From Ianthella basta (lineage: Eukaryota; Porifera; Demospongiae; Verongiida; Ianthellidae): a stretch of 64,000 bases of DNA. Below, piece after piece: positions 11,201 through 59,061 of the stretch (its first letter is position 1; each line of letters starts with the position of its first letter). A model generated the notes under the pieces. That model made no database searches, was not told where the DNA came from, and was given only the letters and a program-made list of their open reading frames with translations. The translations under genes were made by a program, and so were the position numbers. The stretch lies in NCBI GenBank assembly GCA_964019415.1, contig OZ025872.1, positions 2,786,699-2,850,698 on the forward strand. The letters are read 5' to 3'.

Positions 11201-14200
11201 GGTTAAAACAAAATTGTATGCATTCCTGAAGTGTTACAGACATAACTAGGCAGATGATCATCATCATGAGGGCGAGCCTGAGCGAGATTAGCTGCCTTCC
11301 ATGCAGTCCTTATTTCCAGTCCGCCTTAGTTCTTTGTGCCTCTGCCTGTCTCTCTGTAATCTGGCTTCTGTCACTTTGGTAGTTTCTGCAGCCAATCTCT
11401 CCTTCTGGTTAATACTCATCTACTGCAGTCGGGCCTGTATCTGCTTGGCAGTTTTGCTAACCAATCTAGATCTGCTCCCGCTATGAGCGAGCTTCCGCAG
11501 CAGTGCAGCAGCTCTCTGTTCGCTACTCTGGGCATTGCACATCGCCTTGTCTCCTTCTCTCCGTTAATGCAACCATTCTTCTTTCTCTTCCACCATCTTC
11601 AAGAACTATCATGCTCTGTCTTGCACTCTCCTCCTGTTTAGCCACTCATCTGTGTCATTGTCCTTGGGATCTAAAGTAGCTAGTTCTCATGCACACTCAA
11701 ACAGAGAATTTAGCTAGTGTGACATTCTGTGCAGTGGCCTACGCAGTGGGTAGCTAGGGTGCAATCAGCACTCCTGTTGTGCTATTGTTGTTGAGGCTGG
11801 TTTCAGCTCTTTTGGTGGGATTCATAGCTGTAGTATGCTGTGCATAATGACAATGGGACTTTTGTATTGACTCAATATTCAAGCCATTGTGTACACAGGC
11901 AGTGCATACTGATATGCATGATAGCGCAACCACAATGTTTATGAGATGCAAAATCATGTTAATGGTATAAATGGCTATACCATGTATACACCTATGTGTG
12001 CAGTCCCCCATGCCCAAAATATTATGCCAAACCTCCCCCATGGCCTAAACGGACGTACGACAAAGTGCTGTGCAACTAATCAGTGTGGGCTCGCTCAGGC
12101 TCACCCCAACAGCCATTTAATGTACATAATTATTATGTACAATTTACATACTTATAAGTACATGCTATCATAAATGAGCGAAGTTTGATGCAACAGATTA
12201 GTGACGTCACATACACAATTAAGTTTGTGTACATATATATATATATACATATAAGCAGAAAATGGCGCATACGTATAGCATTAGTGAATCGGGCATTTGT
12301 AATATGACGTCACGCATTATACCTTGGCCCAATGGGCTACCATTTTAGCAGCATCTAAATTTATGGGTTTGAAATCTCCAGGGTTTGGTGGGTACAAAGT
12401 TTAGCAACTTCAAGTTTTGTGTATAAAAACCTTTTGCCTGTACAAGAATCATTCTTGCAGATACAATTATTTTAGAAGTTTTGCTCTGCTAAATTCGCTA
12501 AATTTAAAACCTGCAAATATTAGTGGCCTAAGGCAAGACAATGTGCATACTGATGACCTATGTGATCAACAAATAATGATTATGACTGAAACGTTGTGAT
12601 ATATGCATGCATGCATGGTAGCTTGGAACACACTAGCATTGTTTCAACAAAAATTCAAACGTCTCTGTGACTGTGGTTATAATTACCTTCATCAGTGAAT
12701 GGTTAAACAAATCACTCCAGTTGGTGAATGTGGTTACAGGAGATCATGAAATGACAGGTGGCGGTTGGATGTGTGAAAGGCACGTAGCTATGAATATAGT
12801 ATTCCAAGCTCAATCAAGGTAGACTTGATGTGTATTTTAAATCGTCCAAGCAGGAATATAGTACTAGTGTAAATAATGGTCCATCATTCTATGCAGCCAT
12901 AAAATTTGCTGGTAGGCTTTCTCGCTTCCAGTTCAAGACTATCTGGTTGTGCTGGTTGCACAAGCTCTGTAACATGCAGCGTGTGTTGGTGTGTTGGTGT
13001 TAGTCTAGCACCTCAGATTTACTGAGGTCCACCACGTACATGACCAGTCTTAATCACATGCTCTGCCATACAGGGCAGTATGCTTAGATGTCTCCATTCT
13101 TCGAGGCAAACATATGTCACCATACCCTATTTTTGCTGGTGGTCCAGTACTGTTTTGCTTTGCCATTCACTGATGAAGGTGGTCATGCATTGAGTCATTG
13201 CAGCAGCAGAACTACTGTTAACCTTTGGCTAGTGTGTATACATACCAAAAGCATACTACTGTGTACTGTTATCAAGTTGATTTCAGTTCTTCATGCAGGT
13301 TACCCCAAATATATTTACTGAATATGTCATGTGTATAGTAAATGTGATGCCTGCCAATTCATTCCTTTTAGCTAACACCACTGAGTTTCAGAGGCGTGCC
13401 CATTTCATCACTGGAAACCATCATCGTCACGTATATGAACCCCTAATGAAGAGATGTCTCGATGAGCATCCCCCTGTACGTGGGACGTTTGAAGATGTGA
13501 AGAAGGATCTGTCTGTACACCTGAGCAAATATGGTGCCAAACAAGCTCAGAAGTTAGAGGAAGTACTTGTAAGGCACTCCTCACAACATCTGTATGTAGT
13601 TGTAATAGTTATAGGTCATAGGCCTACATTCGCTGCATGAATTTTTTATACTTATTGGTTCTATCACAGCGAGAACTGGAGACAAGAAGAGCAGACATAG
13701 TGGCACTTGAAAAAGAGACTGACAAGCTCAAGGTATCGTGCATGGACTCATCCATCAGCAGTGTGCATGAAATGCTAAGTTTAATGTGCTTTTCATACCA
13801 TATGGCTGGAAATATTGGCACTCCAAATATGTGATGATTACACCTCAAAATAGGCAATACATGTTTGCAGAATTCAAATTGGCAGTGATGGGTGACCAGA
13901 GGTTATGGCACCATAATCAAACACACCTCCCTGAAGTAGCAGCTATATAGTGTTGTACAACAAAGAAATCCCTGCATTCGCTGCCTCAACTTAGCAGTCA
14001 TGCCACTATTGTACAGATAGCCAGACATTCGTCAGTTGCACCTGAATACATACGAGCAGGCCATGCACCACGCTGCTAGATTCATTCACTGCATGGGATA
14101 GCTAGCACCACTTCTTTCGTGCAAACCTACATGGTAGCCATGCTAAGCAATGGATGCATGGTTTTGCTGAAGCTTGAAGAAAGTCAGTGGTAGTAGGAAA

Positions 14201-16646
14201 GCACAACTGCAAATCCACATCAATAATGAATGCAGACATAAAGGCAGAGATGAAGAAGTGGAGCATTGCATGGAAATTGTAGATACCATGAGGAATGAGC
14301 TGACCACCAAATGAGGGAAGTGCAATGACTACATTCTTGAGCAGCATGCACAGATTGGCAAGTACATCGTGGTAAATGGTACAACCAGGGCTGCAAAGCA
14401 TTTTTCAGAACTACTCAACTCAAAATTTGGCGATTCTGTGCTAGACCATCAAATAACCAAATATAATTCCCACCAATATTTCTGGCCATTTGGTACTTCC
14501 TTCTAGTCCTCCTTACATCAGAAGTAGCTTTATTCCAATGTCAACCCTCTATCACCAATTACATTGTACATTGTGTGCTCAGAAGATCACTAATTCTTTA
14601 CAGCATAGTATATTGTCATTCTTCATGCACAGAAACAAATTGAGAATCTTCAAAAAGATCGGACGGAACTCCAAGTAAGAACAATTATTGTAAATGGTAG
14701 GTACAGTACAAAAGACAGAGCTTTGTCTTTGGACGTTGAAGCCTCCTTCATTGAATCAAGGATATAGCATAATTGTATATGATACCCATTTAAGCAGTGT
14801 CTTTGCTTCTTGTTACCACACCCTGCTATGCAGCTGGCTAAGAAAGCTGTGGAAAAGGAACGGGATTCTTTGGATGTAAGTTACTTTGTGATGCTTACTA
14901 TGAGTGTACACGTAGATTGGTATATAGAGTCCTTGGCTCTTGGTGTGTTGCAGCAAAGACGATTCCAGTTGGAACATGATAAAAAGACTCTTGAAGATCA
15001 ACTTAAGAATGCAAAGGAGGAAAGTCTTCGGAGCCGAATTCAAGATGCAGAGGTATATGAGAAATTGGTTTACATTGCGAATTCCATAGAATACAAAGTG
15101 TGCATGGTGTCCAAAGTTATAAACTGCTCTGTTATAGTTGGGATTAGCCTTATTCCCAGGCCGTCTTAATTAGTGCGTGGGCGGAGAAAGCTGGCCCAGG
15201 GAACCACTGTTTGTGCATGTGTGAAGATTTTTCAGCCAAAGCTAGTTTGTATGAGCTTCAACTTTAGTTTCTTGCCTTTCCTGCCTTACAGAAGACATAA
15301 GGCATGGCAGTTGTGGAAAGCACGACTTCTGGAAGCTTCCACACTGCAGATAAAATGCCATTCATTTGCACTTGTATACGTAGCAGCTAGCAAGACTGGG
15401 ACAGAATGGCTCAGCATACAATAGCAGAGCAATACTATTTCTGAATAATTATGATGGAGAGTCGGACAGCCTCATATGTATGCAATAGTTGGCACACAAA
15501 CTTATCGCAAACTGTATGTCCTGATGATGTCATCAAGACTACTTTTCTCCTGTGCGCAGTGTTTGAAAATCACTGGCACGGCATATTGAAGCACCTTAGC
15601 AAACTGATTAACATAGGTAATTCTTTTACCCAAACTAGACCAGTTCCAACGGTTCTCAGCGTTTCCTTGCCAGCCATTTGATGGTTCATCTGTTCTATCT
15701 TACTTTACATAGATTTGTAGAAACATATGCAGTGGTTCCCAGGCCTTCCTTTCCACCTACACACTAATCAACCAGGATGGCCTGGGAATGAGGCCAGGTT
15801 GGGATTCAAAGGGCTATTGTGTTTGTGGAAGGGGTCCTAGTAGCTAGATGCAACCCAACTTCATTCGTTAGTTGGTTGGTTAGGCCCCTGAGCAAGTTGC
15901 TCATGTTGTGTCAACAAGGTACTTGTGGTACTAGAGGTCTCATTCCTTCACAGGTATATTAATTGTCCAGATGTGTCTACCAGATATATGAACAGGATGT
16001 AATGGAAAGTGGTCCTCGCTAGTGCGCTAACGTTATGGGAGGATTTGCCAGAGATAGAGTTGTTGAACGGCATTCACTGACTCAGGGTTGTGCAACAATA
16101 TAAATTGTTTTGACCCATTTCAGCATAGCTATTCTTGAAACTGCTACTACGGCAGGTGCAAGGCATAATTTGACGTAAGGGATTACTGATTCTCAAGCAA
16201 ACACTTTCTAATAGCAGGTCAATACATAGAAGGGCAAAGCAAGATGTTTTGACTATGACAGTCTTTGCAAGCCTCACAGCCTAACGTTATAATTTAACAT
16301 GTTGTGATAACTGATATGCTAGTATTACAAAGCAGTTCAGAATCTGTACACTATTAGCTCAACATAGCTAGTAGCCCTAGAAAATATTTTATGGTGTCAA
16401 TGTATTTTTGGTGTTGTGGTCTGAAATGGAGAGGTTAGTTGTAATATAATATTGTACCATGATAAACAATTCTTTGTCTGAATATGCAGAAGACAAAGGC
16501 GTCATTTGGTGACTTTTTAGACAAGTACGAGGAAGCACAGGTGTGTGTGTGTGTGGGTGTGTGTGTGTGTGTGTGTGTGCGTGTGTGGGTGTGTGCTTCA
16601 TGCATGCATAACAACTGGTGACATCATGTGGCACTTTGATTTGCAT

Positions 16647-16738
<92 letters not shown>

Positions 16739-19700
16739 CACACACACACTCACACTCACACACAATACAGAAAGAAAATAGGAAATTGGAGCAAGAACTT
16801 GCAAGGCAAAGGACAGACATGGAACGAAAGGATGCAGAGGTTCTCAGTGCAGTCCAGCAGCATTCAGAGGTGATAATGGCGAAGATATTGAATCTAGTAT
16901 ATTGCAGCAGTCAGTTTCAGAGACAGGGCTCATCATTTCTCTCCTCACATGTAGAGTGTGACTAAACACGAGCAGTTGTGGAGAGAGAATAAAGATCTAA
17001 AAGAAAAAACTGCTCAACTTTCGGTATGTGAACTTATTTCTTATAATAACCACTTTAATAAGAGTTAGTAGACATGCAGAAATCCCATTACCACTCCAGT
17101 GGGATCTAAAACAAACCCAGAAATCACTGGACGATGTCAGCAAAATGAATGATACCCTGTCCAGGCAGAAACAACAAGCAGAGCAATGGTGTGGACAGCT
17201 ACAGGTGAAGTGACACTGCAGTCTGATGTCTGTGGGTATAATTAGTATAGACATTCTTTATAAGGTTTCCACCATTATCATATGTGCACAAAATGTGTGT
17301 GCAGCCAGGGTAAGGTTTATATGCATAATTATGTTGGACCCTGTATGTACCTTGTATTAGAGGTCTATAGTTTTTCAGAAAAAACAAGATGAATGTAGAT
17401 TGTGCATGCAATGTCTTGAAGAAAGGTTAAGAAAGTAGGCAGAGGGAGCAGTTACTCTGTGTTGCTGTTTCGCTACTCTCTATAAAGTGCACACTGCACA
17501 TGCTCAGTCACACCTACAGGGCATCCATCCTGGTTTTGGACTTTTTCTCTTTGACAATGCAGTGTAGGTGTCAATTAGTAAATATAGGTTCATGCTAACA
17601 CACAAAAGAGCTCAAAAATGATGAGCAGAAGCTAACAGTGTGGTAATTGAAAATGGCAGAATGAGATAGGTGCACGACCGATTTCACAAGACTATGGAAC
17701 CAAAGATGACTGATGATAGGCAGACAACTGTGCTCAAACCATGTGCCTATGTCTTATAAGATGGTGTTTTGTTTGCATGTAGCAATGTCTTCCAATGTCC
17801 CAGAAACCTCCCTGCATTTGTGCAATTTGCTTGCAGAAACGAATACTGCCAGGTGAATGCAGTGTACTTCTGTTGCAAAATGTTCTCCTACTCCCTATGC
17901 TTTGTGAGCTACTACTGTCAGAGAAGAATAAACATTGAAAGAAGACAATGAAATATGGAAATGCCGAGGTAGCTTCTACAGTAATTCACATTTTAGTTTG
18001 AAAGGAAGGTTAATAACCGCATGGTAAACAGCTGATACTTCCTTGAGAGAACCTGTTTTGCTGGAGTACAAATCTATACTGGGATAGTGCTACATTTCAG
18101 TTTATTGCCGAGCGACGAGCGTAAGCGAGCGAAGCGAGGCCAATGATCGCTGTCTATTCGAACTTCGGTGATGTTTATATATCCGATATTTGTATCGCAC
18201 GACACGTGACTGCGCATGTGACTCCGTCACGTGACGGCTCATCTTTTCAAGGGGTGCTTCTGCTCCTGTTCAGCCGCTCATCTTTGCCGGCATGCTCCCG
18301 CGGATCAGGGGCACAGAAGGAGATCAGATGGGAATGGGAATGACCCGGCTGCATTCAGCACACCGAGGGGGCCACGCTGCAAGACGGTGCACGCGACTTG
18401 ATATGGAGACAGCAGGGCAAAGAGAGGCCAGACTAGAAGTGAATGCGGCAGAATGGCACAAGGCTACTGGCCTCGGCGACGGACAAGCAGCGTCAGTCCA
18501 GGCTTGAGGAGCTTTGGCAGTAAAAACAAGGCGCTTGGCTACTAAGACAGCTCCAGTCTGTAACATCACATTACACTTATGTACTGGCCACATACTATTC
18601 ATGCTGCGAGGCAATTCTTATGTGCTTAACGTATGCCTAGTTACTACATAGAAACACTCCATCCCTACATTTAGAAGGATAGTGCATGGTGGTTACACCA
18701 CTTACATTCCATATCAATTGTCACAGCTGGTGCCACATTCTATGCATGCATGTGTAGTGTACGTATAATAGAGGCTCTTCCTGGTGATGCTCAGTGAAGC
18801 CATGGACACACAAAGGAACAGGGCTGTATGAGGACCATAATGGTCAAGTGTCTGTTTTAACAATGAAAGTGGTTGAAGATGATAATCGTGCATGAAGAAT
18901 AGCAATGGTATTATCCCATGAAACTGGTGGCATCACATTTCATACAGAGAGAACCTACAGTAGAGCATTTGTGCACTTTCCAGTTTAGTTTCTTAGCCAG
19001 AATGGTCATGATGCCATGAACGTGGTGTATTTATAGGATACAAAATTAATGACATCACCGAAGCTTCTGCATGCAAGTGATGAATTCAGAATTGCAAGGA
19101 CTGACTAATCCATGGTTAGTTATAGCAACTGTCTCATTGCCATAATTATTATACATATCGCATATGGTACATCGGTTGATTCTGGAAATATCAACCTCAG
19201 ATTTGCCTTTGTAGATATAAGAGTTGTTAACTGCATGGGTCAATATTTTCATCATCCACCTATTTACCGAATATTAAACATTACATATTTTGGCCATCAC
19301 TATGGTTTATACCTCAACCCCCGAAATGAAATTCACTATTGTATTATGATCACTGCATGTTCAGCTTCATCCAAGCTGAGCACTGACAGGAAGTAATTAT
19401 AAGCTGCAACTATAAAACTCTGCTATTGCAGCATATTGCATGTGCAATTGTCATACAATGTAATAAGTAATAGTTATAAACCTCTTAGTGTGTGATACGA
19501 CGCATAAACAGCATGAGGCCTGAGGGCGCGAAAGCGAGTGCTTTGTATGCATCGTATCGCAAACTAAGAGGTCTATGACTTATTTATCTCCTGTTGCCAT
19601 GGCCCTATAAGTGCCCTTTTGGTGAGAGAGCGAATTACTTTCAATGATGTAGGCTTTTATTCAAAGGCGGGCTTCTTCCAGGACACCGGCTCTCAAGAGG

Positions 19701-22700
19701 CTGCCTAGTGTTTTTGAATTTGCAATTGCTGTGACATTTTACCTGAAGGTAAACCACTGTAGCAACACTCTCAGGAGCCACTGAAGTGATTAAAGCTTTG
19801 TAGCTAGCTACGACATTCTTAGTCTTCGAGGTTGTTGTCCCTCGCTGGTCGACTATCTTGTCTCCTTGAAACAGTGTTTTCCTATTGCCACAGTGAGTAT
19901 GAGTGCCTCATATGTACGATTAGTGCATGTGCACTGTGCGGGTTGTGCACATGGTTCATCGCTCGGCTACAGGCTACTTTACATTGTGAACTTGCATGCA
20001 TTGGTTGCAGAGTGATGGAGGGAGGTACTGCATTTCACTCCCTTCCCTTCTCCCAAAGTCATGCAAGGTTGAAACTGAATGCAGTATAATGCTCTTTGCT
20101 GATTGATTTTCCACTGGTGACATGTAGGTAAACTTTGACCTGGACAATATCCACAATACCAACTCACTAGCCAAGGGCTCTTAACCTGATATAAATGATA
20201 TGAGAAATCTTTGTGTGATTGCCATGGCAATGGCTGATATTACTGTGTATATGTCACTATCTGCACATATAGCATGATCTAGAAGGACTTGGAAAGCAGA
20301 AGCTGGATTTAGATCAAGCTCTTGCAGATAAAACTACAACAATAAAGGTTTTGAATGGAAGTGTTCAGGATTTGACTGTAAGTTGTACATGTGAGTGTGT
20401 GCACCTTTCCAAATATCTTGAAATGGCAACATCTTCATTCAATAGAGCAAAGGTTCTACTAAGACAACAACCATTAACAGGCTTACACAGGAAGTGCAGT
20501 CTCTGAAAGAACAGCTGAAGACCACTCGAGCCCAGAAGGAGCAGGCAGAGAGTAATTTAATGACTGTTACACAAACAAACGCACAGACTAAGGTAATTTG
20601 TGAAATATAGTACGTATTGGGTTAGTGTCATAATGCACCAGTGGTTGGTTTCTGCATTGCAGAAAGCACTGGAAAACTGCAGAGGACATCTAGATAAAGA
20701 GAAGAGCTCTTGCCAAGCACTACAAGGAACACTGAAAATGAAGCAAGTAAGTGGATACTAAAGATAGCAGCTCACTGTCAATGGCATGCACTACCTCTGT
20801 AGCTGAACCTGTATATAAGCTGATGGTGAATACATATAGACAAAATCAGCATTACTTTATGTTTCTAGCATACATGCACCTGAACCATTTCTAGTTATGT
20901 GAATGAAGTTAAAAAGAGAGAAGCCAATTTGGTTAAGCTATGATTAGTTTTAGCTCCATATGGCTTATGTATAATGCTGACATGCAGTGTCTGTGGGATA
21001 TTCAGCCCATGCACTTTATACTTAAGGCACTTCGTCTTGTGACTCATACTGTAAAACCAAGAGGCACTTCTTGCTTCACCTTAAACTATTGCATAGTACA
21101 TAGTACATACTTACTCATACTGTAAAACCAAGAGGCACTTCTTGCTTCACCTTAAACTATTGCATAGTACATAGTACATACTTAGCAAATTTTCTTCTTT
21201 ATGGCACTCGTGTACTATATGTTACTTAAAGTGGGCTAGGAGTGTTTTATGCGATTTATGGCTCGAGGTGTGACGGTCGAGTTGCTGATAATGCACGAGG
21301 CTTCGCCTCGTGCTTGATCACGCAATAAGACCCCCACACCGAGTGCCATAAATTGCGTAAAGCACTCCTAGCCCACTTTAAATGATATAGAGTGACTTGC
21401 GCGGGCGGACGGTTGGCCTTCAGTCTTCCATTTTCCGATTGCGTCATCTGCAAGCCATATTTGGCTGATTCCATTGCGTCATCTGTAATCCGATTGGTTG
21501 ACTCCATTCAAACTTACCTCGCATTCTGGTCAGAAGGAAGGTAGAGTGAAGTGAGTAGCTGTAGCAGTAATGGGCGAAAACGGTCCTTCGCTGGCAAGAA
21601 GACTCTCAATGCGCCTTAATGGAACAATTCTGAGCTGCGCTATGTTCTTTTTAGCATCGCAGAAGAACAACTATTTGCTGCCGTTGTTACTATCCATTTG
21701 GCTAGCTAGCTAGCTAGTGCGCAGATGCCCGCTCGGACTGCCAGTTCAGGAGCCGCAAAAAGGACTAGCGAAGCACCCTTCCTCTGCCATTAGAGCACTC
21801 GTTGCTGCCTTTCAGAAGCGAAGGATGGGTAGCAGGCTAGGCTTTAACTTACGGAGCGGCGAGGTCACACTTGGGCAGAAATGTAAAGTAACTTTTGTAA
21901 TTCGCAATCTCAGTCAGACCACACTCGACAGAATTCACCCTTAAAAGCGTAAGGAGGAAGTTTGAGTGCTTGCGTTTCTTGCTAGAGTTCTTTATGGCTC
22001 ACCTAGCGTTCTTTAACTTCCATAAAGAACGGCCATTAAGCACGCTGCAAGATTAGGCAATATAAAGTACTCAAAATTCCGTTGATCCGCCCACACAAGT
22101 CACTCTATAGTTCATTAAACTATATTGTAGAAATGCTATGTTGGTAGTTCTAAATACAACATGCAAATATTCTAGCTCATTGGTTAGGCACCTTGTTCAC
22201 TCTATATTATATGTTTGTTGTAGAACATATATACGTATACATACTATAAGAGTACAGCTGCATGGCTACTGGAAACTTCCAGGCATGTATCTGCCTACAA
22301 ACAATCATGCATAGTTCATTCTCACTGCATCATTGCTCCATCACATGTGTAGGATGCACTGGAAGTGGTAGAAAGAAATCTTGGAACCAAGGAGGAAGAA
22401 TTGTTAAAATTGCATGAAGAGAAGATGAGATTACAGAGGGAAGCTAAAGATCAAGCCAGTTCCCTTTCAAATTTAGAAGTAAGATGTGCATTCAAAGGTA
22501 ATCACCTTTGCTTTATGCTCATAGGTATTGTATCTGATGTACTGCCTCTCCTTGGCTCTGCCTTGCAGTGAAACATTGGCGGGATTTTATATTTGGCCAT
22601 TTTCAGAAGTCTGCCAAATCTGTCAATATTCCCATTTGAATATTCGTGCGGGCTTATGCCATCATAAAAGTGGAGTCTGGTGCTCAAATCCTCGTTTCGT

Positions 22701-25700
22701 TTGACAAATCAGTCAATATCTACAGAACAAAACATCGCACAACTCTCACATAATTATTACGAAGAGATGACTGAAAAGTGCATTCTTCGGGACAAATATG
22801 CCCGCTCTGTTCTTCCTCTACCTTTCTCCTCCCACTGTCGATATTCGCTACACAGCCCATGCCATATTATACCCCTTCCAGTGGAACAAATATTCAACTA
22901 TTCGTTCACTGCAAATGACGGATAGTCAACATCAAATATGAAATTTGTTCAACCCCTAGTTTACAGTTTGTATAATCCTGAGTGCTTTCTCAAAGTAAGA
23001 GACAGAGCAGGTGAATGAATAGCATGAGTTCTTGTTTTTGATGGCAAAGCAAATTAAGGTCAGGCAGATGTGCAGTGCAACTTGCTGCACCTCAACCAGC
23101 TATAAGCACGCGCACCACAAGAAACCCCTGAAGAGTGTGTGAAGATATTTTGTGATATTCCACTGCTAGCTAAATTTGCTGTAAATCTTCTAATATTTGA
23201 AAATCTAAAAGTTTCGCAAACTTTCCACAGTCTTGCCTTGAAGCATTCTAAAATTTGGAATTCTTGGGCGACTCTATAATTCATGTAGACCTCTAATTTA
23301 CATTAACGTTTCTCGGGGTACTGCATTAAATACCTTATGAAATGGTACCTAACAGCGGTAAACACATTTACCAAAGCAGTGTTGCCTTCAGAGATGTCCA
23401 ACATGTTCAGATCAGCTACTGGCTAGTCACTACAATTAGCGCAGGCAACAGCTAGCTATGGCTTTTCTGACCTGGAAGTTCATTTCCTCGGTGTCTCATA
23501 CAAAATTCTCTGCAATTTTGTGGCTCCAAATCTCCTTGTAGACATAATTCCTGCGAATAAGGCACAGTGCGGTGATGAGGAAAGCACCAGTGGCAACCAT
23601 TTTATTCACAGAGCTTCAGAAAATGGCGGCCGAGAGTGCCTCCAACTTCACAAGAGGCTCTAATTTTTGCAAGACTCAAATGAATATGGACATATTTCCT
23701 CCTACACTTTGAAAATTCAGAATTGAAAAATATACAAAGTTCATGAATTTTTAGAAGATTTCGGTACATTATAGGGTGAGCCAGGCAGTGTTATAACATT
23801 CTCCGATGTTACCGTGGCTGAGCATGCGAATGCACGTGACATATTGTGGTAGGCCGAATAGTACTCGTAGTACAAATCTGCATCAATCATGGAGAACATT
23901 TTTACTATTTGCAGCTAGACATTAGCGTGCAGCTTTAAGAGGGTTATGCTATCATTTGGCTTCGGTCGTAAAGGTTATGGCATTTCAGCAGAAAGTCTCA
24001 GAATATTACATGACAAAGGCTGCAACACATTGTGTCAATATATCATTGTGTGGCAAGCTTTGCTGTAAGCGAAAGATGATTACAAAAGCCAAGGTAGTGA
24101 TCTAACACTTTACGTGTCCTTTGCGATGTACTGTCCCAGGTAACACTTATAAGCTGCATAACTTGTTCAGGTTGGCATAGAGTAGATCTCTCAATGCAAC
24201 CTTATAGCGTATTATATTAAGGCAAAAGACACATCGTATATCATCACATGCTCAGTTTCTAATTCAGCGTCTACCTCATTTGCCATACCGGTGACCTGTA
24301 CAATTTCACTGCTCAGTCATTGACAGCGAGAGTTCTGGTAATAGTGAGTGATTATTGCAACACAATATGCTAATGCAATAAATGATAGTGGTACCCAGTG
24401 TGATGCCAAACATGTATTCTTCTGACACTGGGAAATGGTTATCTTCAGAAAGTCGACGATTTGGCCGAAGAGTTTGACTTAGGAATATTTCTTCACTTAC
24501 TAAAAGCACACTTGCAAGATACTGGTAGGATAATGCATGTAGTGTCATCCAGTTCTGTGCAGAAGTGTGATAAGTTCAAATTGCTGTCAATGCTAATGTG
24601 AACCTTATACATTCAGACTGACAATTGTTTCAAGACTGTATGGCATGGCCTTGTCACAGTGTATGCATATTGATTACAGAAGGATATGGATCTGTATGTC
24701 ATAATAGCTATTGGTGGCCCTTCAATTGCAGGTGAAACTGAAGAAATTGCAAGAAGAAATTGACCAATTAAAAGACCATTGTCAACATGTGGAGGGTGAA
24801 CTAGATGATACTAAGGTATACTACGTACAGAGTCATACAGGAGCCATGTATATATATATGATGCATTTTCATATGTACATGTGCGTACTCTGGCATGTAA
24901 AGTACGCAGCACGTGTCAAACTTCTTTGGAATTCATAGTGAAGGTGTGTCTCAGAGACACCTTTACGTTGCACAGAAGAGCAAAGCCAAGTCTTAACAAG
25001 TAACTGCTTAGAATGGAGGAGTAAACGTTGGTGATGCAAACTATTTAGGATGAGTTACTATTCACACTCTACAATTCATCAGTGAAGATCTGACTAGGAT
25101 GAAAACTCGCAGTCTCAAAGAAAATCCTGAAATTTTACCTGACATGCATGGTTGTTCAAACAGTGGTATTACCATGCACCAAAGAAACGTTATACTCTAC
25201 TGGTATACCCACTTCAGGAAATTGGCAGAATAGATTGCACCATTGTGTGATTGTGGATAAGATGCAATCAGTGAAATAGCTCAGTGGTAGTTCAAAAATT
25301 ACATTGTTTACTTCTTTATTAGGCTGCCAAAGACTCGCTTGAACGGTCCAAGCAGAAGCTAGAAGATGAGAAGTCTGCTAGTGAAATTCAATTCCATCGC
25401 TTACAGGGAAAATTAGATGGAAAAGGAGAGGATTTGAGCAAGAAAGAGGTATGTATGTTTTCCTCATGTGAAGTGACTAGCTGGACTGCTTCAGCAATTG
25501 CTGTGTGCATGCATAATATTATGAATGTACACTGTTTTTGAACGCAATGGAATGATGTGGTAGGGAATACATGTTTTTATCTGTAAGTTGTGATATTCCC
25601 AGTAGGAATGTGGCTGATTTATAAGCACAAGGTGTAAGGACACAAATAGCCCGAGAGTGGAGTGCTAATCAATCAACTACATTCGGAGTGAGGATGTCAT

Positions 25701-28700
25701 AAATGATTAATTTTTCAGAATAAAGGAACCATGGGTGAATGATAATTGGTTTCCAGCCAGATAATGAAAGCCTAAGGAAACGTGCATGGGCCAATGAATT
25801 GCAGCATAGTATCGTTAGCAGGGCTAGTAGCTAGTTCAGAGCAAAGTGAGTGAGCTTTTGACGAGGCAGGTAGGGCCATGAGTCTCATGCAGACCTTCTC
25901 TACTGCTAGCTACTTTATAGTTTCCAGGTGTCCAATGCTAACCTGCAATTTTGCAACTTGGCATCAATGTGAGAGTGTGACATAGAACTGCAAGGAGGAA
26001 GAGGAGTCCAAGTCCCACAAATTGCTGAACGAGGCGAGCACTTAGCTTGGGATTTTAGCACCGACGAAAAAGAGCATGATTTGTTTCAAATACACACGCG
26101 AATGAAGATGCTTCTACAGCGTTACAACTCTCTGCTGTTTATCATACAGCAAACAAGCTTTCACACACAAGTTAGTATAGCACAGTACTGCAAAACAGCA
26201 GTAAATAGTGTTTGCACCCTTTCCAAAGCTGAAACTATAACTGCACCATATAAATATTCTACAAAGTGCCACCATAACTTCTGTGTACTGTAGAATATCT
26301 ATGATGGATGGCACTGTGTCCCATGCACCGTACGTATGTATGACAGTGCTACTAAGATGTGTTGTGTATGTGAATATATAGTGCTCTTCAATCAGATGTG
26401 TATAATTGCCACTAGTCTAGCCGCTAGTCCCTACTTCATCATCGCACGCGGGGGGGGGGGGTAGAAAGTAGGGTTTAGCAGAATGTGTAAATTCCCCACC
26501 TCGCGCTGATCAATGAGATCGCTGCTGCTTCAGATCACAGCAGCAATTATGGAGATACCTGCGCTTATTGACCAAAGTAGGGACAGGGCGACAGTTGTAT
26601 TAATACATTCGCTGCAGGCTGTGGAGTCCGCGATCGTTGAGGAAAGCCAACGCAGCGACGTTTTCCACCTTCTGGTTGTCGTTTTCTCTCGTTACTGAGT
26701 ATTATTCGTCGACATTGTTCGTAATCGATGTTCTTGATCAACACCCAGTAGCACATTGATTGCAAGGTATGGAATTTACACATTCTGCTAGACCCTACAT
26801 TTTACCCGCCCCTATGCGAAAGGACAAAGTAGGGGCTAGCGGCTAGACTAAATTGCCACATTCAGTTAGGTATGTACACCAATAATTAACATACGTACAC
26901 ACTAAAACAATAATTATATAGTCACTTTGTATAACCCAATAGCAGTGGTATAATCACCCAATAAATGTAGCAACCACCAGCAACGGCAAATATATATAAG
27001 GGGTTATAATTGCATATTGTTTTTTTGTCATTAATCCATGTTGTAGAAAGAGTACACGGACCTGTTGAAGCGATATCAAGAAACCCAAGCAAAATGTGAT
27101 GAAGGACAAGAGTTGTTGCCTGCAAAGGATGAAAGGATACATGAACTGGAGGATGAAAAGCAAACACTGGAGGTTGGAGTCATAGATTATGCTTCTGTTA
27201 TAGATAGATTCTGCAAGTTATTTCTAGGCATCTTGCTAACTGTTTTGTTCATTATCTCTTCTCAAAGCGCCTGATATCAGGATTTCAAAGGCAAAGATAA
27301 TTTAAAAATGGCTATCAGCTGCGAGCAAAAAACTGGAAATAAAAAGATATCTGTGCAAAAACAGCAAGACAGGTGATTTCAACCTGTCGTGGACACTTCC
27401 CAATCCGTTCTTTATAATCCCTGAAAGTGTGGTGGCACCCAGTGCAGTAGTTTTTGCCAAATCACGAACAAACAGACAAACAATGAACTGACTTATGCAT
27501 ATAGATATGACTGTCTGACTGGCTCAATTTTTGGGCAGAAAGCTTCTACAATGGTTTTTGCATCTTTCCAGTGTCTTTTGCAATGAAACCCAGCAAGCAT
27601 GGAATGCCCATCATCTTGTCGTAGAGTCACAAATGGCATTTGGATTCGTTATCCAGGCACAAGATTGCACTGCTTAGATGTATGATGCATTAATATACCC
27701 ATGGTTGCATCTTTCATCACTTTCACGTTGAACTGCATGCCTTCTGCACTAGCTATGACTCTTATACATCAGGGTAGGTGGCTATCTGCATGTGGGTTAT
27801 GCAATACTGAATACTCACAGAAATATATATTTACAAATATTTATCCAGACTTTCCCAAGGGTTGCCATAACTTTATCTGCTTATATTATGAGATCTTTAA
27901 AATAATGTACTGACCAAGGACTGACTGACGTTGATTGATTATTGTTCTTTGAGCCTCTTCCTTCCATTTCGCTCCCGATTTCTTGAAGTGCACTGATTTT
28001 TTGAAGCGTATCTCTCTGGCTGCCATATAGAATAGTTATAGTCTTCTTTAGACTTTTGATGGCACTCCCGTTGGACACGCAAGATGAGAGATCCCCCTCG
28101 AACGGTTTGTGTGCGGTGTGCCTGCGCTCTATGCCCCTGAGGAAGGATGGGGCAGTTCGTGTGCATGGGCCAGTTGTAAGCCGTTGCCCTGGATCTGGTA
28201 AACAACCGAGGGGCACACATCTTGCCGCGCCTCCTGTCCCCACGATGCCCCAGTCTCTCTCGTGTAGCCAACCCCCAATCGTGCCGTCAGCCTCGCCAAG
28301 TATCTCTTTGTTGCCGCGAGTAAGATTGCTGAGAAGGCTACCGCTAGCGTCCCGCGACCTCGCAGCGAGCAAGTTGTCGACTGTTCTGGAGGAGGTGAAC
28401 CGAAGCAACAACGTGAGTGCTTGGACAAGGCTGTTGAATTTCCCTCGACAGTGCTTTCGGGTTCCTGGAAGAGGAGGACGACGGTGGGACCTTGCTAGAC
28501 TGGTTAATCAGCAGATAGCTGAAGAGAATGATCCTACACTGGTGACACCGGACCCAAGTGTTGCCCATCCTCATTGTCATGCCAGCAAGTCACAATCTGA
28601 TCCACTTCATTCTCTGGCCACTAGAGTGTCAACTAAGCTGGAGGAGGGGGATTTCAGAGGCGCGGTACGCTTGGCTTGCTCAGAGGATGCTGTCGCAGAA

Positions 28701-31700
28701 CACAATGACGCCACCATAGCAGCCTTGCGGGCCAAGCACCCAGCCCCGCATCCGGATACCAATTTCCCATTGCCTCCCGAGGAGAATGAACCACAGCCCC
28801 CCATAGCAGTGACAGAGCAGGATGTAGCCCGGGCTGTCCTTTCTTTCCCTAGGGGTTCTGCAGGAGGCCCTGACGGACTCCTGCCTCAACACCTCAAGGA
28901 TCTCATCAGCAATTCTGCCAGGGCGGGAGGCAAGAAGCTGTTGGCAGCACTAACGGCTTTCACCAACCTTGTGCTGTCTGGGATCACACCTGTGCAGGTA
29001 CGGCCCCTCTTTTTCGGAGCAACTTTAACAGCTCTGAACAAGAAGGATGGTGGATTGCGCCCCATTGCGGTTGGGTGCACCCTTCGACGTATGGTGGCAA
29101 AAGTGGCAAGCAGAGCTGTCCTGGAGCGTATGGGATCGCTATTGGCACCACTCCAGCTAGGATTCGGAACGTCCTTGGGAGCAGAAGCAGCAGTCCACTC
29201 CGCAAGGGTCTATCTCCACCACCTCCTCCCGGACCATGTCCTCCTCAAGCTCGACTTTAGGAATGCATTCAATAGCATTAGAAGAGATAAGGTGTTGGAA
29301 GCAGCAAGGGAAAGCATTCCTGAGCTTTTCCACTATGTCTTCTCCTGTTACTCCGCCCCATCTACCCTTTTCCTGCATGGGACAACCCTGCAATCTGCTG
29401 AGGGGGTTCAGCAAGGAGACCCTCTGGGACCCCTCCTCTTTTGCCTGACCATTCACCCTCTCATCACACCCCTGAAATCAGAATTCAGGGTTTTCTATCT
29501 GGATGATGGCACAATTGGAGGTGCCGAGGAAGAGGTGTTACGAGACCTACAGTACATTGAATGCCAGGCTGCCCACTTAGGTCTATTTCTGAACCATGCG
29601 AAGACAGAGCTCATTTGTGAAGAACCAGCTGGTGATCTTTTGCTGCAAGCAGCCCCAGACTTGTGTCAGGTGAAGCCTGAGAATGCCACCCTCCTTGGGG
29701 CCCCCATTGGTCAGCTGAAGTCCATCAATTCAGCAATTTCTAGTCGGCTGCAGGCCCTAAAGACCATGGGTTCCAGGTTGCCCCACTTCCACAGGCAGGA
29801 TGCGCTTCTGCTGCTTAGGCAATCCTTCGCCATTCCTAAGATCCTGTACACCCTCAGAACTGCCCCATGCTGCATTTCACCGGTACTGGCCTCTTTTGAC
29901 CAGGAGCTACGATCGATCCTCACTAGCATCTTGAATGTCAGCCTGGACGACCACTCAGCCTGGATACAAGCCACTCTTCCTGTTGGGGCTGGAGGTTTGG
30001 GGATCCGAAGGGCCACCCAGCTTGCCCCCTCCGCCTTTTTGGCATCTGCTGCTGGGTGCAAGGATCTTCTGAACCAGATCATCCCTAACAGGTTGAAAGG
30101 CACGCCCCCCCCATACACCCTGGAGGTTCGTAATGAGTGGCAGCAGGGTCACCAGCACACACCACCTCCCACCCCAGTGAAGCAGCAGCAGAAAGAGTGG
30201 GACAAGCCCCACATTGAGGCGACTCAGCAAGGGCTGCTGGACTCTGCTGCAGACCCCAGGACGAGAGCTAGACTTTTGGCAGTTCAGGCTAAGGAGTCTG
30301 GTGCATGGCTGAATGCACTGCCTGTTCCATCCCTGGGGCTCCGCCTTGATGATGAAGTGGTGCGCATCGCTGCCGGTCTTCGTCTCGGTGTTCCCCTCTG
30401 CCGTCCCCACGTGTGCAGTCAGTGTGGAGGCCATGTGGACAAGCTGGGCATACATGGGCTCAGCTGCAAGTTCAGTGCAGGGCGTCTTCCGCGGCACACG
30501 GCAATCAACACTATTGTCAAGACGTCCCTAGCCAGAGCGCAGTTTCCATCTACGCTGGAGCCCTCTGGCCTCAGCCGGTCAGACGGCAAACGCCCAGATG
30601 GGGTTACCATCACTCCATGGCAAGCAGGTCGCACCCTCGTTTGGGATGTGACCTGCCCCGACACCTATGCAGTCTCCCATATGGTGTTGTCAACAAGAGA
30701 GGCAGGAGTGGTGGCGGCTGCAGCCGAGGCCAAGAAGACTGTAAAATACGCGGAACTGGCTAGGACTCACCATGTGGCCCCACTGGCGGTCGAGACATCT
30801 GGTGTGTTTGGCTCAGGGGCTCGCGAATTCTTCACTGAACTGGGCAGGCGGTTGATTCGAGTCACAGGGGATTTGATGTCCCGGTGCCACATGATCCAGC
30901 AGATATCAGTTGCCCTACAAAGAGGCAACGCTGCCTCGGTGCTGGGCACCATGGAACAATGTAATTTACTTGACAATTAATTACTATTCAGACATTGCAT
31001 AGGTGGTGCTGTGCACTGCCTATTAATTACTTTGACTCTGTTATTAGTCATCACATCATTACAATTTAATTTAATATATATATATATGTACTACTTATAT
31101 GTACGTTTGTTATATAACACCATCCCTACATAGACAGCACTACCGTGCTGTCTGATTATGTCAATTTGCAGCATACCTTTAGGATGGTGTACCAGATACT
31201 TGTTACATCATCCTCTTTCCTTCCAAGCTGGTTGTGGCTCCCTTGTCCATACAAGGGACTCGTGGAGAGTTCCTCTAGGCTTCAAGGATATTCTGATCTC
31301 CAGTGGCCTCGTTCAATCCTCTCACTGATGCCTATGATGCTATGATGATGTGGGAGCTTCACACTGGGATCCAGTATTAGAAGTAAAATGTGTAGTGTTC
31401 ATCCCACAATTGCATCCAATTTTCTGGTCTGCGTATCCATAAATCAATGGTTCTTAATGCACAGCCCAAGGTTTTTAGCAAAACTCTGCTAAAAGGTGCA
31501 AAAAAACATTATGCCTTTCATGTGAATAATTGATGTAGCTAATAATGTTTATGCCACAGTACATGTTATGGGTTAACTTGATATAATACATCTAAGATAT
31601 GATGTCACTAAGATATTGTGCAATCTCTTGATACAATTCAGTAACATATCCCTGAATAATGCATCTGAACAAAACATGTGTTGCTGTACTTTAGGAAGAA

Positions 31701-34700
31701 CTGAAGAAAATTACCATGCAACGGGACACTTCTCGAAAGAAAGTTGAAGACTTAGCAGATAAGGTACAAGAGTTGGAAGCTGAACTCCAGAAGAAGAAGG
31801 ACACCATTAGCAAACTTCAGGTAACTGTGATGCTTGTTGCTATACATTTATTTTGCAGTGTCAAACGCCTGTTGTGATTTTACATAAATTTCAGAGTGAA
31901 GAGCGAAAAACTCATGTTAGAATTAGTACTTTGGAGGATGATTTGACAGCTGCGGTGTCTGCTAAGGAGAAATGCACAGCAATGCTGGAGGCAGAGTCAA
32001 GCAGGGCTCTGAAAGCAGAGGTGTGAATAGTACAAATCTGCATGTTGTATACAATTCACACATTCAAAAAATTCACATTGTATTTTTACCTGAATTTATG
32101 TACTTCATGTTGTAGCGATCATTGGATGCACAAAAAGAGGAATCACTGAGACTAGAAAGGGAGAAACAAGGCCTCCTGTTTCAAGTAGGTGATGTTTATC
32201 AGGCATGTACTGATATGAATATACACTGCTGTGACTATTCTTCCGTGTTTTACTCCTTACACATGAAAGACTTCTCCTAATTACGTAACTGATTATGAAC
32301 TCTCACTGAAGCAAACACTAGCATGTGGTAGCATGTTTGTAAATCATCATACCACTGTAGCGATGTTACCTTTAAAATGCATGTCCTGTTATTCAAATTT
32401 TTATGGTGTGTGCGCAGTCCCAGAAGAATAAGTGGCTTGAAAAGCTTGACAAAGCAAAGGAGCTGCAAATTGACCTACAGCGTGACAATGATTTGCTGGA
32501 ACGAGATAAAGCTGAGCTAGCACAGAATTTGCATAAAGAGCAGGTATGCTTGCAAACCCTCATGTGTCAGGTCATATCATGTATGTTGTTTTCCAGTAGA
32601 GTGGGACGATGCTTTGCATTTTCCTTATGTCTCTATCCTTTTCTGTACAATTCTGAAGGCTAAAATCCATAGGCTACTTTAAATACTTGCCAAATTATTG
32701 TATTGCGGGAAATATTGACGGGCACAAAATTTGGAGAAGTCCAACAAAAGGCTGAGCCTTCAAAAAATTGGCGGCGTTGCAAATCTGACTTGTGGCCTCA
32801 CTTCCCATCATCAATCTCAAAAACTTGCCTTCAGTGCATACATTCATTCATCAGCCCTGTCTCCTCTGAGATACACCAAGCTTAATTGTCACAGCTCCTT
32901 TCCTTCTGTAGTTTCTTAGGTCCACTTTGACTGCAAATGTATGCATATATACTACATATAATGGAGTCGACCCGCACATGCCACATTATATACGGCTGGA
33001 CATATTGTCAGGCAAGTTAATTTCAATTTGGCAGAATTTCCAAAATCACCAAACTGCCATTATTATTTTAAAGCCTCACCATAACCTTAACCATTTCCCA
33101 CCATACAGTATGTAGGTTTCCATGCATAAGCAATGCTTAAGCACTTGAAGCATTTCTAACAAAGTTTTTAAATAGTATAATGATCATTGTTCCCAGCCTT
33201 AGTGAGTACATCAGAGATGTATGGGCAATGTATTTGTCCCATCAACCCTCAGAACCCTAATTTCAATATATTTTTGCACAAACTGCACACACACTTGCAT
33301 TCATATGTAGCATTAAGTACACAAGAGTGCAAGAAATGCTCACTGCTTACAACTTGGGGAAATGTATGAATGCATACTACCATCTTGTACAAGCTAGTTT
33401 GCGCAGTTATTCCTATCTACTGCTGATATGCCATTAGGATGAGAAGCAACAGATTCTCAAGAAGCTAGGTGAATCTACTGTTGAAGTAGAAAGCATTCAG
33501 CGAGAGCTAGCCTCAACGACATTCAAACTCAAAGACACAGAAACTTCAGCCAAAGATGCCAAGGTACTGCTTTGGGAGCTGCACCAGTTAGAGATATCAT
33601 TAAACAGTAACATTCTCGTGAATCTTCTTGTTTAGATGTCATTGGAGAAGTGCAACTGTGAGCTTAAAGCCATGACCAAGGAGTTCAATGCTCAGCAAAA
33701 GAAGCTACAGGAAATGCAAAGAAAGGTGTCAAGCATATATGAAGAAAAGTGTGCCTCAGAGGTAAAGGTATTGATGTCGTGGATGTACGTCTATCATGTA
33801 TTCATCGCCAGGTACATGCATTCTTCTCATGTACCATTAGGATGCTCAGCTGATGGTGCTTGCACGTGAGGAAAAGTTGCAACTGCAGCTTGCTGAAACA
33901 CAGAAGATTGCTGTGACCGTGCCGGTAAGCATTGACAAGATTTGAATTATTCATTCATTCATTACTGGGACTCCATTTATCCATGAATGACCATTTTCCC
34001 AGAAACCCAAATAATTCGTTAATAGTACAATGTGCTCACCACTCTTATCAATATCGTTCAATGAATTAAAATTTAAGTACTTATACCCATATCTCTTTTC
34101 ATTTGTGCGATTGAAAGTCAACATGTCACGTTCTACCTAATCTTTGAGGACTTGCTCACAATTACTAGTGCTCCTCAGGATAGATGTCTCACATTCATGC
34201 ACATGCACATACACTATAGCACACGGTAGCATGAATTCACACATGAACTTACACGTAACACATAATTATATATATTCACACAATTCACATAACTATATTA
34301 CAGTTGTATATAATGTTATAATTGTATAATGCTTGCACTTAATATAATGTAAAATCACAGTAAGTGTATGCACTAGTAATACAAGGAGATAGACCTACAA
34401 TAGGTAAGATGGTCTTGAGATATATGGAAATTTTGTGATATTGAGATTAATCCTCTTAGTAAGAAAAAATAATCTCTGCTGGATGACATGACTGGAGGGG
34501 TGAATGTCCCATGTTCAACCTCTAGGATATGTGTCTTGAAAGATGTCTTTGCCTGCTCATGCCTTCTGTAGCAGGCATCAGTGGAAGACATACAGTTGGT
34601 GGGGCATTGGTAATTGAAGTGTATATGGGTATACGTACGTTTGTACATATACAGCACATTCCACCACTGATTAGAAATGCGTAGATGAGAATGGGTGTGG

Positions 34701-37700
34701 TTTCCACTTTCATCATTGTTTGTATGGTCACCCACCTATCATGTCACCATTTCTCAGAGTACCCTTAAATAAATTCTTTACTGCTCTTATAGGGCCTGAA
34801 AGAAGAAATTGAGGAGGCCAAAAAAGACTTGGCTGCCCTTAAAACTGATAATAAGGTGCTTCTGAAAGCCCTAGAGCAGAAAGCTACCAAATCACTTGAC
34901 ATTGAGGAGACAAACAGTAGGCTAAAAGCAAGCCTTGGTGGCCAGAAGAAAGCTAGACAGCAGAAGCAACAGCTTCAAAGGCTTCAAACAGAGCTACAGC
35001 GTGAAAAACTAGAAGTACATTCTGAGAAGGCTAAATTGCAAGTGAGCGCAGTAGCACATTTTTATATTCTATAGTACTATGCAATTGCACTACACGCAGT
35101 TGATTCTTGAACTTCCAATTTGATTAATAGGAGATGCAAGAAGTCAATGAGCAAATGAAGAGACATTTGGAGCAGTTAATGCATACCATTGAACAGGAAA
35201 GGGAGAAACTGCTACATGGAGTAGCCCCCTTATTTGCCTCCTGTACTATGTTGAAGACTGTGTTATCTTCAGCTGACCATAGTACTGAGTACACAGCTCA
35301 GCTAGAGGGTAGAATTGTCGATGTGGAACAGACCCTCCAGATGTTAAGTGATGCAACCAAGCAATTCGGTGCAGCACTACAAGAAGTATGTTTGCTATTC
35401 AAAGTGCTTCCACAACATATACAGTGAAACTGACCTTTCATGTTGCTTCATCTAACAGGTAACCTAATGTGATATGCATTTTCTGTCAAATAGGTCCAAT
35501 CAAGCAGTCATGATGTGAAGTCATATGTACCAGGTAATGTTATTTCATATCATTGGCACAATTAGCATAAACTTATATATTTTGGATAGTAAGAAGAGCA
35601 CTATATGATAGTCATGCACTCCATTGTGCACAAGCTTGCAAGTGTTCATTGTAAAGAACAGTTTATCTCCAGTGTATCTGTATCCTTTCTGTTCTCTGCT
35701 ATAGGCTTGGGCGCAATGCAAAGGAGTCAGGGCATTCTTCCGCTTAGGTTCAGAACTGGCACGGAGTGCACTGGTGAGTAGAGTACACAGGTGTAATATG
35801 CTGTACAGGAAGCCACTCGGCTGACTTGCAGTTACAGGATCATTTAAAACCTTAAAATTGGAAAAATGTAGGCATATCACGAGTGTGTCCATAGCCAGAC
35901 AGCCTACAAAATAAACCAACCCATGCATTCTGAAGGACGTGGATTGAGTTACCCATTTGGTTTACAAGGCTGACAATATCTACAAAATCCAGAGCACCTC
36001 TAGGCTCTTTCAATTAAGGCAACCACACTGTAATCCACACTTTCTTCACGCAAAGTAATTGCCCAACCACAGAGTGCGTCCCACACCTGTACCTCACGAT
36101 CATATAAAAGCACTTGATAATCTGTGGCTGAGAGGGCAGTCATCTTCATGTCCAAACCCGGTGGGATATTTTTGCCAGCCAGTAACACAGCTGGATCACA
36201 GCGACATTATAGTTTAAGCATAATTTATGGTAATGGCAGTTTTGGCTGCAGCTTGTATTGCAACACACCACAGACAAGACAACAGCCAACATGGGCTGAA
36301 AACGTAAAAGTAAGTGCACCGCTTCAACCAAGCATGCTAGTATAATCCCATCACCAAACACCTCCTTGTCATGGAATGAGCTATTGATGAGCATTTCACA
36401 AGCAATGTACTTATACCTTGAACAACCTTATTGTACCATGGAACATAGACCATCTTAATTAGCATTTACAAGAATGTCACTGATTAGTCAGTACCCGGTG
36501 TGGAAGCTTCAAAACTAGCCTCATACCCAGTCCCTATTTCTATTCTGACTTTCGCTCGGAAGCGGAAGTCAGAATGAAAATAGGGACTGGGTATGAGGCT
36601 ACTTCAAAGGAGGCTCTGGATAGAGCCCACCCACGTCAGTATTTAATGAGGGAATGGAACAGTGGCTGTTAATTGCAGTGTCTAGTGACCAAGCTGCGAA
36701 AGAGTCAGATAAAGATCTGGAGGTTGCTGGTGCTGGTCCAGTTTACTGCCATTTTTCTCTTCCCCCCTCTTTACTTACCATGAGTAGTTCTGAATGTTGT
36801 CTTTCAGCAACAAATGTTTAACCCCTTACCCCAGAAATTGCATATATGCAATGAATGAGGCCATTACATCATCGTTTTCTCTACCTGCGATCCTCCGCAC
36901 AAAGTTTTCTACACCAGACTTGTGGAAGACATGCATGAACCTTCTCTCCCGGCCTACCTTGTCTCCTGGCTACACAAGCTGTGTTCAAGACCTGTTTTAG
37001 CTCTCTTGAAACTACATGCCTTCTTTTCTATCAGTAGTTCAAGCCGAAGCACTTGCACAGTGCCATGAATTGTTAACTTGAAAGAAGGACTCTACATATT
37101 CCTGTGATTCTACGTCAAACATTACTTCTTCATCGTTTCCAGAATAGGCTCAGGAAGTATGGACATGCGATCATGTCTTTCCCACTAGAATCCTGCATTG
37201 TGTTGGACTACATCTTCAGGAAGAGTGTTAATGTTGCATCAATGCATATGTTTAGGCAACAAATGGTCTAAAGTGCAAAAGCATAATGTGCTAATTTTTT
37301 ATGTACATACTTGTAATTGGGAGCAGGGTGTGAACTTAAAGCTGCATGCACACCAAATTGGATGAATTAAAGTGACACCAGCATTAACAGCATTTTAAAC
37401 AACTGTCCGTCTTTTTGTGCACTCCTTTATGACCTCCTTCTGTGCATGTTCTCTGGGACAAGTAGATAACCAACTCCAATGAATGTACCTTGGTACTTAC
37501 AAAACCTTGTTACAATAATATGTTATGCCATTTAGAAATAAGCCACCTCATTTACTCGTCACTAACTCTTTAGGTGATGAAGCTATACTGCAGCAGCTCT
37601 GCTGTATGGCTACTGGCATTAAGCAGCTCATCATTGGTTCTGATGGAGGGAAGTTTACCCTGGGAAGTGGTGATGCATTACAGGCAAATGGTGATGCATC

Positions 37701-42426: not shown

Positions 42427-45356
<2,930 letters not shown>

Positions 45357-58814: not shown

Positions 58815-58903
<89 letters not shown>

Positions 58904-59061
58904 AAGTGTGTGTGTGCACATGTGTATAATGAAATGTGTGTATTACATTATCTTGCCTTCATTATGCTAGTTTCCTTTCTTTGTTTCAGGATGACAAGCT
59001 AATGGCTGATAAAAAGGCTCAACAGTGTGACATGAAGGCACGCATGTTGACAGAGAGCTAT
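56968..59061 (+). CDS. Coiled-coil exons of gene C
   Basis: Exons of 237, 189, 42, 73, about 226, 63 and 72 nt. The first reads LHSRVRELEEKVRGLERKVA and continues as a strong heptad coil. The 189, 42 and 63 nt exons are whole-heptad lengths, like those of genes A and B, and all undisturbed exons are phase 0. The 73 and 226 nt exons are each one nucleotide beyond a multiple of three, and each shows the reading shift that this predicts. TGA 57716-57718 stands where a CGA Arg codon would fit (TD-stop-ARSKAAEQ), consistent with C-to-T change at CpG (inference). Confidence 0.75.
58817..58902. repeat. (TG)n microsatellite
   Basis: About 86 bp of TG repeats in an intron of gene C, 87 nt upstream of exon 58990-59061. 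Confidence 0.97.

Follow-up and report, generated by a model that had tools for sequence, protein, structure and literature searches.

Coiled-coil exons of a tandem kinase-like gene family in the sponge Ianthella basta lie mostly on a grid of whole heptads

Why should the exons of a long coiled coil measure whole heptads, that is, multiples of 21 nucleotides (nt)? The question is raised by a 64,000-nt stretch of the Ianthella basta genome (C5:2786699-2850698, in an assembly of 209 Mb and 96 contigs), hereafter the window, and in particular by a gene within it, termed gene B, with a kinase-like region followed by a coil of about 885 amino acids (aa). An initial annotation, made from the sequence alone, had reported that the coil exons of gene B share one phase and are mostly multiples of 21 nt, had extended the rule to the neighbouring genes A and C, and had proposed growth by duplication of heptad-sized exons. 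The reading that we favour, with a probability of roughly three in four, is that gene B belongs to a tandem family combining kinase-like and long coiled-coil regions, whose coil is divided among symmetric phase-0 exons that form a grid, mostly of whole-heptad blocks cut between heptad positions e and f (e|f).

The coil of gene B consists of 24 exons with AG/GT borders, between positions 13670 and 35385 of the window, all 24 of which are phase 0, as had been claimed. Equally, the reported lengths hold: 17 of the 24 exons are divisible by 21 nt (binomial P of about 5e-10 against a chance expectation of 1/7), and eight are exactly 126 nt, or six heptads. The exons are as follows, with E4, E5, E6, E7, E18, E23 and E24 as the seven that are not multiples of 21.

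13670..13732, forward strand: E1, 63 nt, 3 heptads
14633..14674, forward strand: E2, 42 nt, 2 heptads
14834..14875, forward strand: E3, 42 nt, 2 heptads
14954..15052, forward strand: E4, 99 nt, not a multiple of 21
16490..16540, forward strand: E5, 51 nt, not a multiple; 7 aa below the 72-nt exon at the equivalent place in paralogues G4 and G1a (homology by eye)
16771..16869, forward strand: E6, 99 nt, not a multiple; together with E7, 56 aa or 8 heptads
16955..17023, forward strand: E7, 69 nt, not a multiple; starts at d, register back to e|f
17100..17204, forward strand: E8, 105 nt, 5 heptads
20273..20377, forward strand: E9, 105 nt, 5 heptads
20446..20592, forward strand: E10, 147 nt, 7 heptads
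20663..20746, forward strand: E11, 84 nt, 4 heptads
22353..22478, forward strand: E12, 126 nt, 6 heptads
24732..24815, forward strand: E13, 84 nt, 4 heptads
25323..25448, forward strand: E14, 126 nt, 6 heptads; homologues of equal length in three paralogues
27047..27172, forward strand: E15, 126 nt, 6 heptads
31695..31820, forward strand: E16, 126 nt, 6 heptads
31895..32020, forward strand: E17, 126 nt, 6 heptads
32116..32184, forward strand: E18, 69 nt, not a multiple of 21
32418..32543, forward strand: E19, 126 nt, 6 heptads
33438..33563, forward strand: E20, 126 nt, 6 heptads
33636..33761, forward strand: E21, 126 nt, 6 heptads; 132 nt with the alternative donor
33841..33924, forward strand: E22, 84 nt, 4 heptads
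34793..35041, forward strand: E23, 249 nt, not a multiple of 21
35131..35385, forward strand: E24, 255 nt, not a multiple of 21

These borders were recovered, identically for all 24 exons, by a dynamic-programming exon chain that combines splice and codon scores, allows every phase and contains no term for length modulus. Since the splice matrices and part (half) of the codon model were built from gene B exons, this finder is independent for length and phase only; that is, it tests the length and phase of the gene B exons and not the existence of their splice sites. After the finder was retrained on the gene cluster described below, 23 of the 24 exons were unchanged, and the donor of E21 moved 6 nt downstream, giving 132 nt. 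Two usable donors, 6 nt apart, are present at this place (33762-33768), so that E21 may be read as 126 or 132 nt.

Gene B does not stand alone. With its kinase exon as query, at least some two dozen kinase-like places were found at C5:2.45-2.89 Mb (150 of 512 candidates scored), at least 11 of which, the query itself included, reach 48% identity or more to it; the nearest among the matches listed has 65%. We applied the same finder to C5:2590000-2850698 (260,699 bases, including 12,500 N), defining as coil-like those exons with a coil-against-globular codon score above 0 and an exon score of at least 5 in the first run, or at least 4 in the retrained cluster run and in the control genes. Lengths were counted in phase 0-0 exons, and exons scored as globular were excluded in cluster and controls alike. 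The first pass gave 192 coil-like exons, 178 of them phase 0-0, and 109 of the 178 had lengths divisible by 21; outside the window the count was 86 of 143, and 47 of 95 after thinning to less than 35% identity. The retrained run, covering about ten related genes, gave 212 phase 0-0 exons out of 226, with 129 of the 212 (61%) multiples of 21, a figure that includes a 126-nt lysine-rich low-complexity stretch (window position -22773) that is probably no exon, and that counts 24-nt fragments as non-multiples and E21 as 132 nt. Gene by gene, multiples of 21 amounted to 16/24 in G4, 13/20 in G5, 33/51 in G7, 9/13 in G1a, 8/14 in G1b, 2/6 in G2, 7/13 in H1, 8/11 in H2, 9/30 in J and 5/10 in A. Gene J, a long coil gene that follows the rule much less, lies upstream at window coordinates -121.1 to -101.2 kb; two similar coil genes, with 8/11 and 7/13 multiples, lie at -99.7 to -96.5 kb and -196.6 to -190.9 kb, respectively.

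As controls we used three long coiled-coil genes of the same genome, namely, two myosin rods and one TPR-like gene, located by Pfam profile and processed with the same exon finder. Of their 45 coil-like exons, 24 were phase 0-0, and only 3 of these 24 were multiples of 21, close to the chance value of 1/7 and different from the cluster (Fisher P = 5e-6); inclusion of globular-scored exons, which adds one 126-nt TPR-like exon, gave 4 of 27. Thus, the same length distribution in unrelated coiled-coil genes, which the initial annotation had named as evidence that would speak against it, is not what these genes have, and the rule is specific to the kinase-coil family as far as three genes can say. 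These data also bear on whether the grid is an artefact of exon calling, or of choosing convenient exons. The list originally given for gene A was indeed selective, gene C turned out to be broken, and the finder was trained on gene B splice sites; yet a model with no length rule reproduces the result throughout the cluster, in the first run, coil-like exons of phase 0-0 numbered 178 on the forward and 3 on the reverse strand, and chance lengths come out of the same finder in the controls. An artefact is therefore extremely improbable.

Are these exons also blocks of the coil itself? Heptad register was assigned with a seven-state model trained on the two myosin rods only, and applied to single cluster exons and then to joined exons. 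First, taken singly, 0.66 of the 24 gene B exons and 0.65 of 154 other exons start at f; among the other genes this share is 0.83 in the 92 multiple-of-21 exons versus 0.38 in the 62 non-multiples. Second, when exons are joined, starts at f number 20/24 in B, 20/24 in G4, 17/20 in G5, 43/50 in G7, 11/13 in G1a, 10/13 in H1 and 7/10 in A. Third, E8 to E17 of gene B (ten exons, 385 aa) run without a register slip, and the odd pair E6 and E7 (33 and 23 aa) adds up to eight heptads, with the register restored after E7. Scoring the register across junctions, as had been suggested, thus gives the expected outcome: the coil exons are for the most part closed blocks of heptads that share one register, and most cuts fall between heptad positions e and f.

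A common register could in principle be the product of heptad composition, if introns had been inserted singly at proto-splice sites (MAG|R) that happen to recur at one heptad position, and the terminal E, K or Q codons of many gene B coil exons are what this would produce. However, such sites are spread over the register, with only 0.18-0.22 preceding f, and independent insertion at them predicts 16-17% multiples of 21, against the 61% observed; we rejected it on this count. Moreover, the myosins of the same genome are not cut at f: 0.15 of their exons (n = 21) start there, the largest share being 0.33, at a, and with the TPR-like gene they have 3/24 multiples. This explanation is very improbable.

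How old is the grid? In an ordered comparison of seven gene models, in which the row for gene B has 26 exons, including two pieces of a retroelement, we found 143 homologous exon pairs, 108 of them equal in length. Among the 35 unequal pairs, 10 differ by 7 or 14 aa, but this group of 35 includes several cases of shared events, of pairs with low scores or of borders that run too far (as the 46- and 45-aa versions of a 35-aa exon in G7 and G2 probably do), so that the excess of whole-heptad changes is suggestive only. One difference of 14 residues, in G7, looks by eye like two heptads repeated in tandem. The exon lengths are thus inherited between paralogues, and such inheritance invites the view that the grid is frozen history, left over from early copying of blocks and preserved through descent only, with no selection on register. 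The 108 equal pairs agree with it, as does the length order that recurs in B, G4, G5, G7 and G1a. Against descent alone, the register has been kept although E14 to E17 of gene B have just 10-19 of 42 residues in common with their best matches; whole-heptad changes exceed 1/7 of the unequal pairs, with the reservation about shared events and overrun borders just given; and a profile test shows no trace of the supposed early copying. We regard frozen history as possible, though not probable.

Block copying itself can be seen in one member of the family. G7, upstream of the window (window coordinates -31.4 to -9.8 kb), has 50 coil exons versus 20-24 in G4, G5 and B, and contains tandem blocks of about 1.98 kb, exons and introns together, that are 92.8-94% identical. 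Exons of 42, 42, 38, 15 and 49 residues follow one another within the block, with more copies of it; the 38 and 15 pair adds one 4-residue step, and the following exon again starts at f. Adjacent copies are 97.1% identical in their exons and 93.2% in their introns, and insertions or deletions hit 0 of 380 codons. Growth by duplication of exon blocks therefore happens in this family. When exon similarity within each gene was compared with that of heptad-shifted windows, G7 stood far above (P 3e-18) and G5 slightly so (P 0.04), with no significant difference in G4, G1a or H1.

The eight 126-nt exons of gene B are a different matter. Their 28 pairwise alignments have a mean score of 5.0 when aligned by exon and 4.5 when shifted by heptads, and the profile test is likewise negative; we thus rejected a detectable common origin, and aligning these exons to each other, as the initial annotation proposed, revealed no copy relation. 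Its idea of growth by heptad-unit exon duplication is therefore supported by the tandem blocks of G7 but not by these eight exons: exon-block copying is at work in the family, yet invisible for the 126-nt exons of gene B.

A further proposal was that of a splice-tunable ruler, in which skipping and inclusion of exons, with coils of varying length in one register as the outcome, would be what preserves the grid; this would be compatible with the reading we favour. All 24 coil exons of gene B are phase 0-0, and 17 of the 24 could be skipped with no change of frame or register. Nevertheless, the differences in coil length that we observed lie between genes and not between isoforms, and a grid of any origin would yield exons that keep the frame. 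Judged from sequence, such a ruler is unlikely. Similarly doubtful is the broader suggestion that the grid is an evolved device for setting coil length, with which the kinase-coil proteins would lengthen and shorten their arms through exon copying and splicing, either as a molecular ruler or to diversify an immune-type family.

We return to the favoured reading, that of a tandem kinase-coil family with heptad-block exons. In this reading the grid predates the gene duplications compared here and has been passed on exon by exon; since each block holds reading frame and register together, one block or several in a row can be duplicated, dropped or altered in heptad steps while the coil stays intact. 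Selection on register probably maintains the grid, and the first coil exons may themselves have arisen by block copying too old to see. Several observations weigh against this reading. First, 83 of the 212 cluster coil exons are not multiples of 21, and the rule is weaker in several genes, such as J (9/30) and G2 (2/6). The remainders of these 83 are uneven, and those of 3 and 4 residues occur most often (20 and 21 of 83); departures of these sizes are termed stammer and stutter, respectively. Second, the exon borders are predictions of a sequence model, several of them with alternative sites, and the control set comprises three genes only. Third, length changes between paralogues include some that are not whole heptads (49/46, 38/34 and 33/35 aa), and the 126-nt exon positions common to paralogues show no sign of common origin, either pairwise or by profile. 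Fourth, the ratio of nonsynonymous to synonymous differences per site (pN/pS) in the duplicated blocks of G7 is about 0.78, which means that selection on residues is weak there.

The remainder of gene B, and the other members of the family within the window, are as follows.

10326..11073, forward strand: kinase-like exon of gene B, PF07714/PF00069; by eye, degenerate-looking catalytic motifs
13372..13568, forward strand: gene B second exon, from the end of the kinase region into the coil; the exon finder preferred a donor 6 nt earlier; colinear with the protein P0001 (see below)
37573..38169, forward strand: domain 3' of the gene B coil, with conserved counterparts in two paralogues; resembles ZU5 by eye only
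41152..41421, forward strand: gene B C-terminal Death-like domain; weak sequence match; death domain on top in fold search, below significance
773..4284, forward strand: gene A coil, with exons of 63, 54, 54, 126, 126, 51 or 42, 165, 126, 84, and 135 or 117 nt
56968..59889, forward strand: gene C, a broken copy that is related to the 3' portion of paralogue G4
62534..63845, forward strand: start of gene D, kinase exons followed by two coil exons, of 63 nt (63655-63717) and 42 nt (63804-63845)

Genes A and C follow the rule less tidily than had been claimed. In gene A, 5 of 10 modelled coil exons are multiples of 21, or 6 of 10 with an alternative acceptor that gives a 42-nt exon, and the 54, 54, 165 and 117/135 nt exons were absent from the original list. 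Gene C has an in-frame stop inside its 189-nt exon (57695-57883) and one coil exon split across two frames, and two of its pieces, 90 and 94% identical to G4, contain an in-frame stop each.

At the protein level, the products of genes B and A would consist of a kinase-like domain, a long coil and a Death-like end. A kinase domain (PF07714/PF00069) scores above the curated cut-off in B, A and D. Inspected by eye for the catalytic motifs HRD and DFG, gene B has HGE in place of HRD and no DFG, and thus lacks intact motifs; the kinase of gene D (62534-63259) has HGN for HRD and looks catalytically degenerate; and that of gene A (3-578) keeps HGD and DYG. The Death domain (PF00531) falls below its curated cut-off of 22.6 bits, with 13.4 bits in B and 12.6 in A. 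The Death-like end of gene B was modelled as five helices, the death fold having six, with a mean predicted local distance difference test score (pLDDT) of 74, and its best match in a fold search of the PDB is a death domain complex (probability 0.91, E 0.36; none at E 0.001); for that of gene A, RIPK1 is the sole PDB sequence match, at E 0.25. Identity of the 37573-38169 domain as ZU5 found no support: it has no PF00791 match in Pfam and no PDB sequence match, and its model is of low confidence (mean pLDDT 42). By analogy with the RIPK-like layout, and given the tandem expansion, a signalling or immune-type role for the family may be suggested.

Other elements are present in the window. The intron between E15 and E16 of gene B contains, on the forward strand at 28005-30980, an open frame of 991 aa with a reverse transcriptase domain (PF00078). 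Short repeats like TTTCCTGTAC, on both strands, at 42430-42650 and 45100-45350 look like a small inverted-repeat element, and an open frame at 6441-6872 (forward strand) resembles, by eye, a fragment of a RecQ-type helicase.

Relatives in other species were looked for with protein searches in which the candidates sharing most words with the query were scored. Residues 1-700 of gene B gave at least one match and P0001 at least 92, with P0002 the only close one among the latter; among the candidates scored, P0001 and P0002 are thus the only close relatives. The first 659 residues of the joined gene B exons are 31% identical to P0001, from the kinase into the coil. P0001 and P0002 are 48% identical to each other; the aligned coil has one gap only, seven residues long, and in both proteins the coil starts at f (0.91). 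The end of P0002 reads into an apparent intron, before which the coil stops at register e (0.98). Gaps between these two proteins and G1a are mixed, several of 7 or 14 residues and many not. P0010, a Dysidea avara protein with kinase and coil, has 27% identity to P0001 over 42%; in the P0001 search, several kinases of plants and algae score higher.

How does this family compare with known systems? RIPK1 combines a kinase at its N-terminus with a Death domain at its C-terminus. Gene B would share this layout, its Death-like end being weakly supported, but differs from RIPK-type kinases in its coil of about 885 aa and in kinase motifs that look degenerate. P0010 likewise pairs a kinase with a coil, and carries PF00791 (ZU5). 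The myosin II rods and the TPR-like gene resemble the family in their long multi-exon coils, about half of whose exons are phase 0-0 (24/45), and depart from it in lengths (3/24 multiples of 21) and in myosin cuts with no preference for f. Tropomyosin, with its 42-residue pattern and its duplicated, alternatively used exons, is also a coiled coil with exon duplication; its exons, however, are not known to be all phase 0 or multiples of 21. Intermediate filament rods offer a change of coil length by whole heptads, the longer rods differing from the chordate type by 42 residues, or six heptads (PMC2075511). This is a single historic deletion, and the rod exons given for one gene, of 125 and 65 bp, fit no heptad grid (PMC2075511).

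In this family, then, the structure of the genes clearly tracks that of the protein down to the smallest repeat of the fold; the same genome supplies the controls, and one paralogue, G7, has blocks copied so recently that their introns still match. A long-standing question becomes testable here, namely, whether exon borders follow structural units through history, or because register-safe exons let coil length evolve. In the open literature on exons and coiled coils, as covered by titles and abstract openings, we found no description of heptad-sized exon grids. A parallel comes from another fold: the 54-nt exons of fibrillar collagen, whose length is a multiple of the structural repeat, whose phase is uniform, and which allow gain and loss of units in frame. 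Both systems have symmetric exons quantised by a protein repeat; in the kinase-coil family, however, the unit is the coiled-coil heptad of 21 nt, and most cuts fall at e|f.

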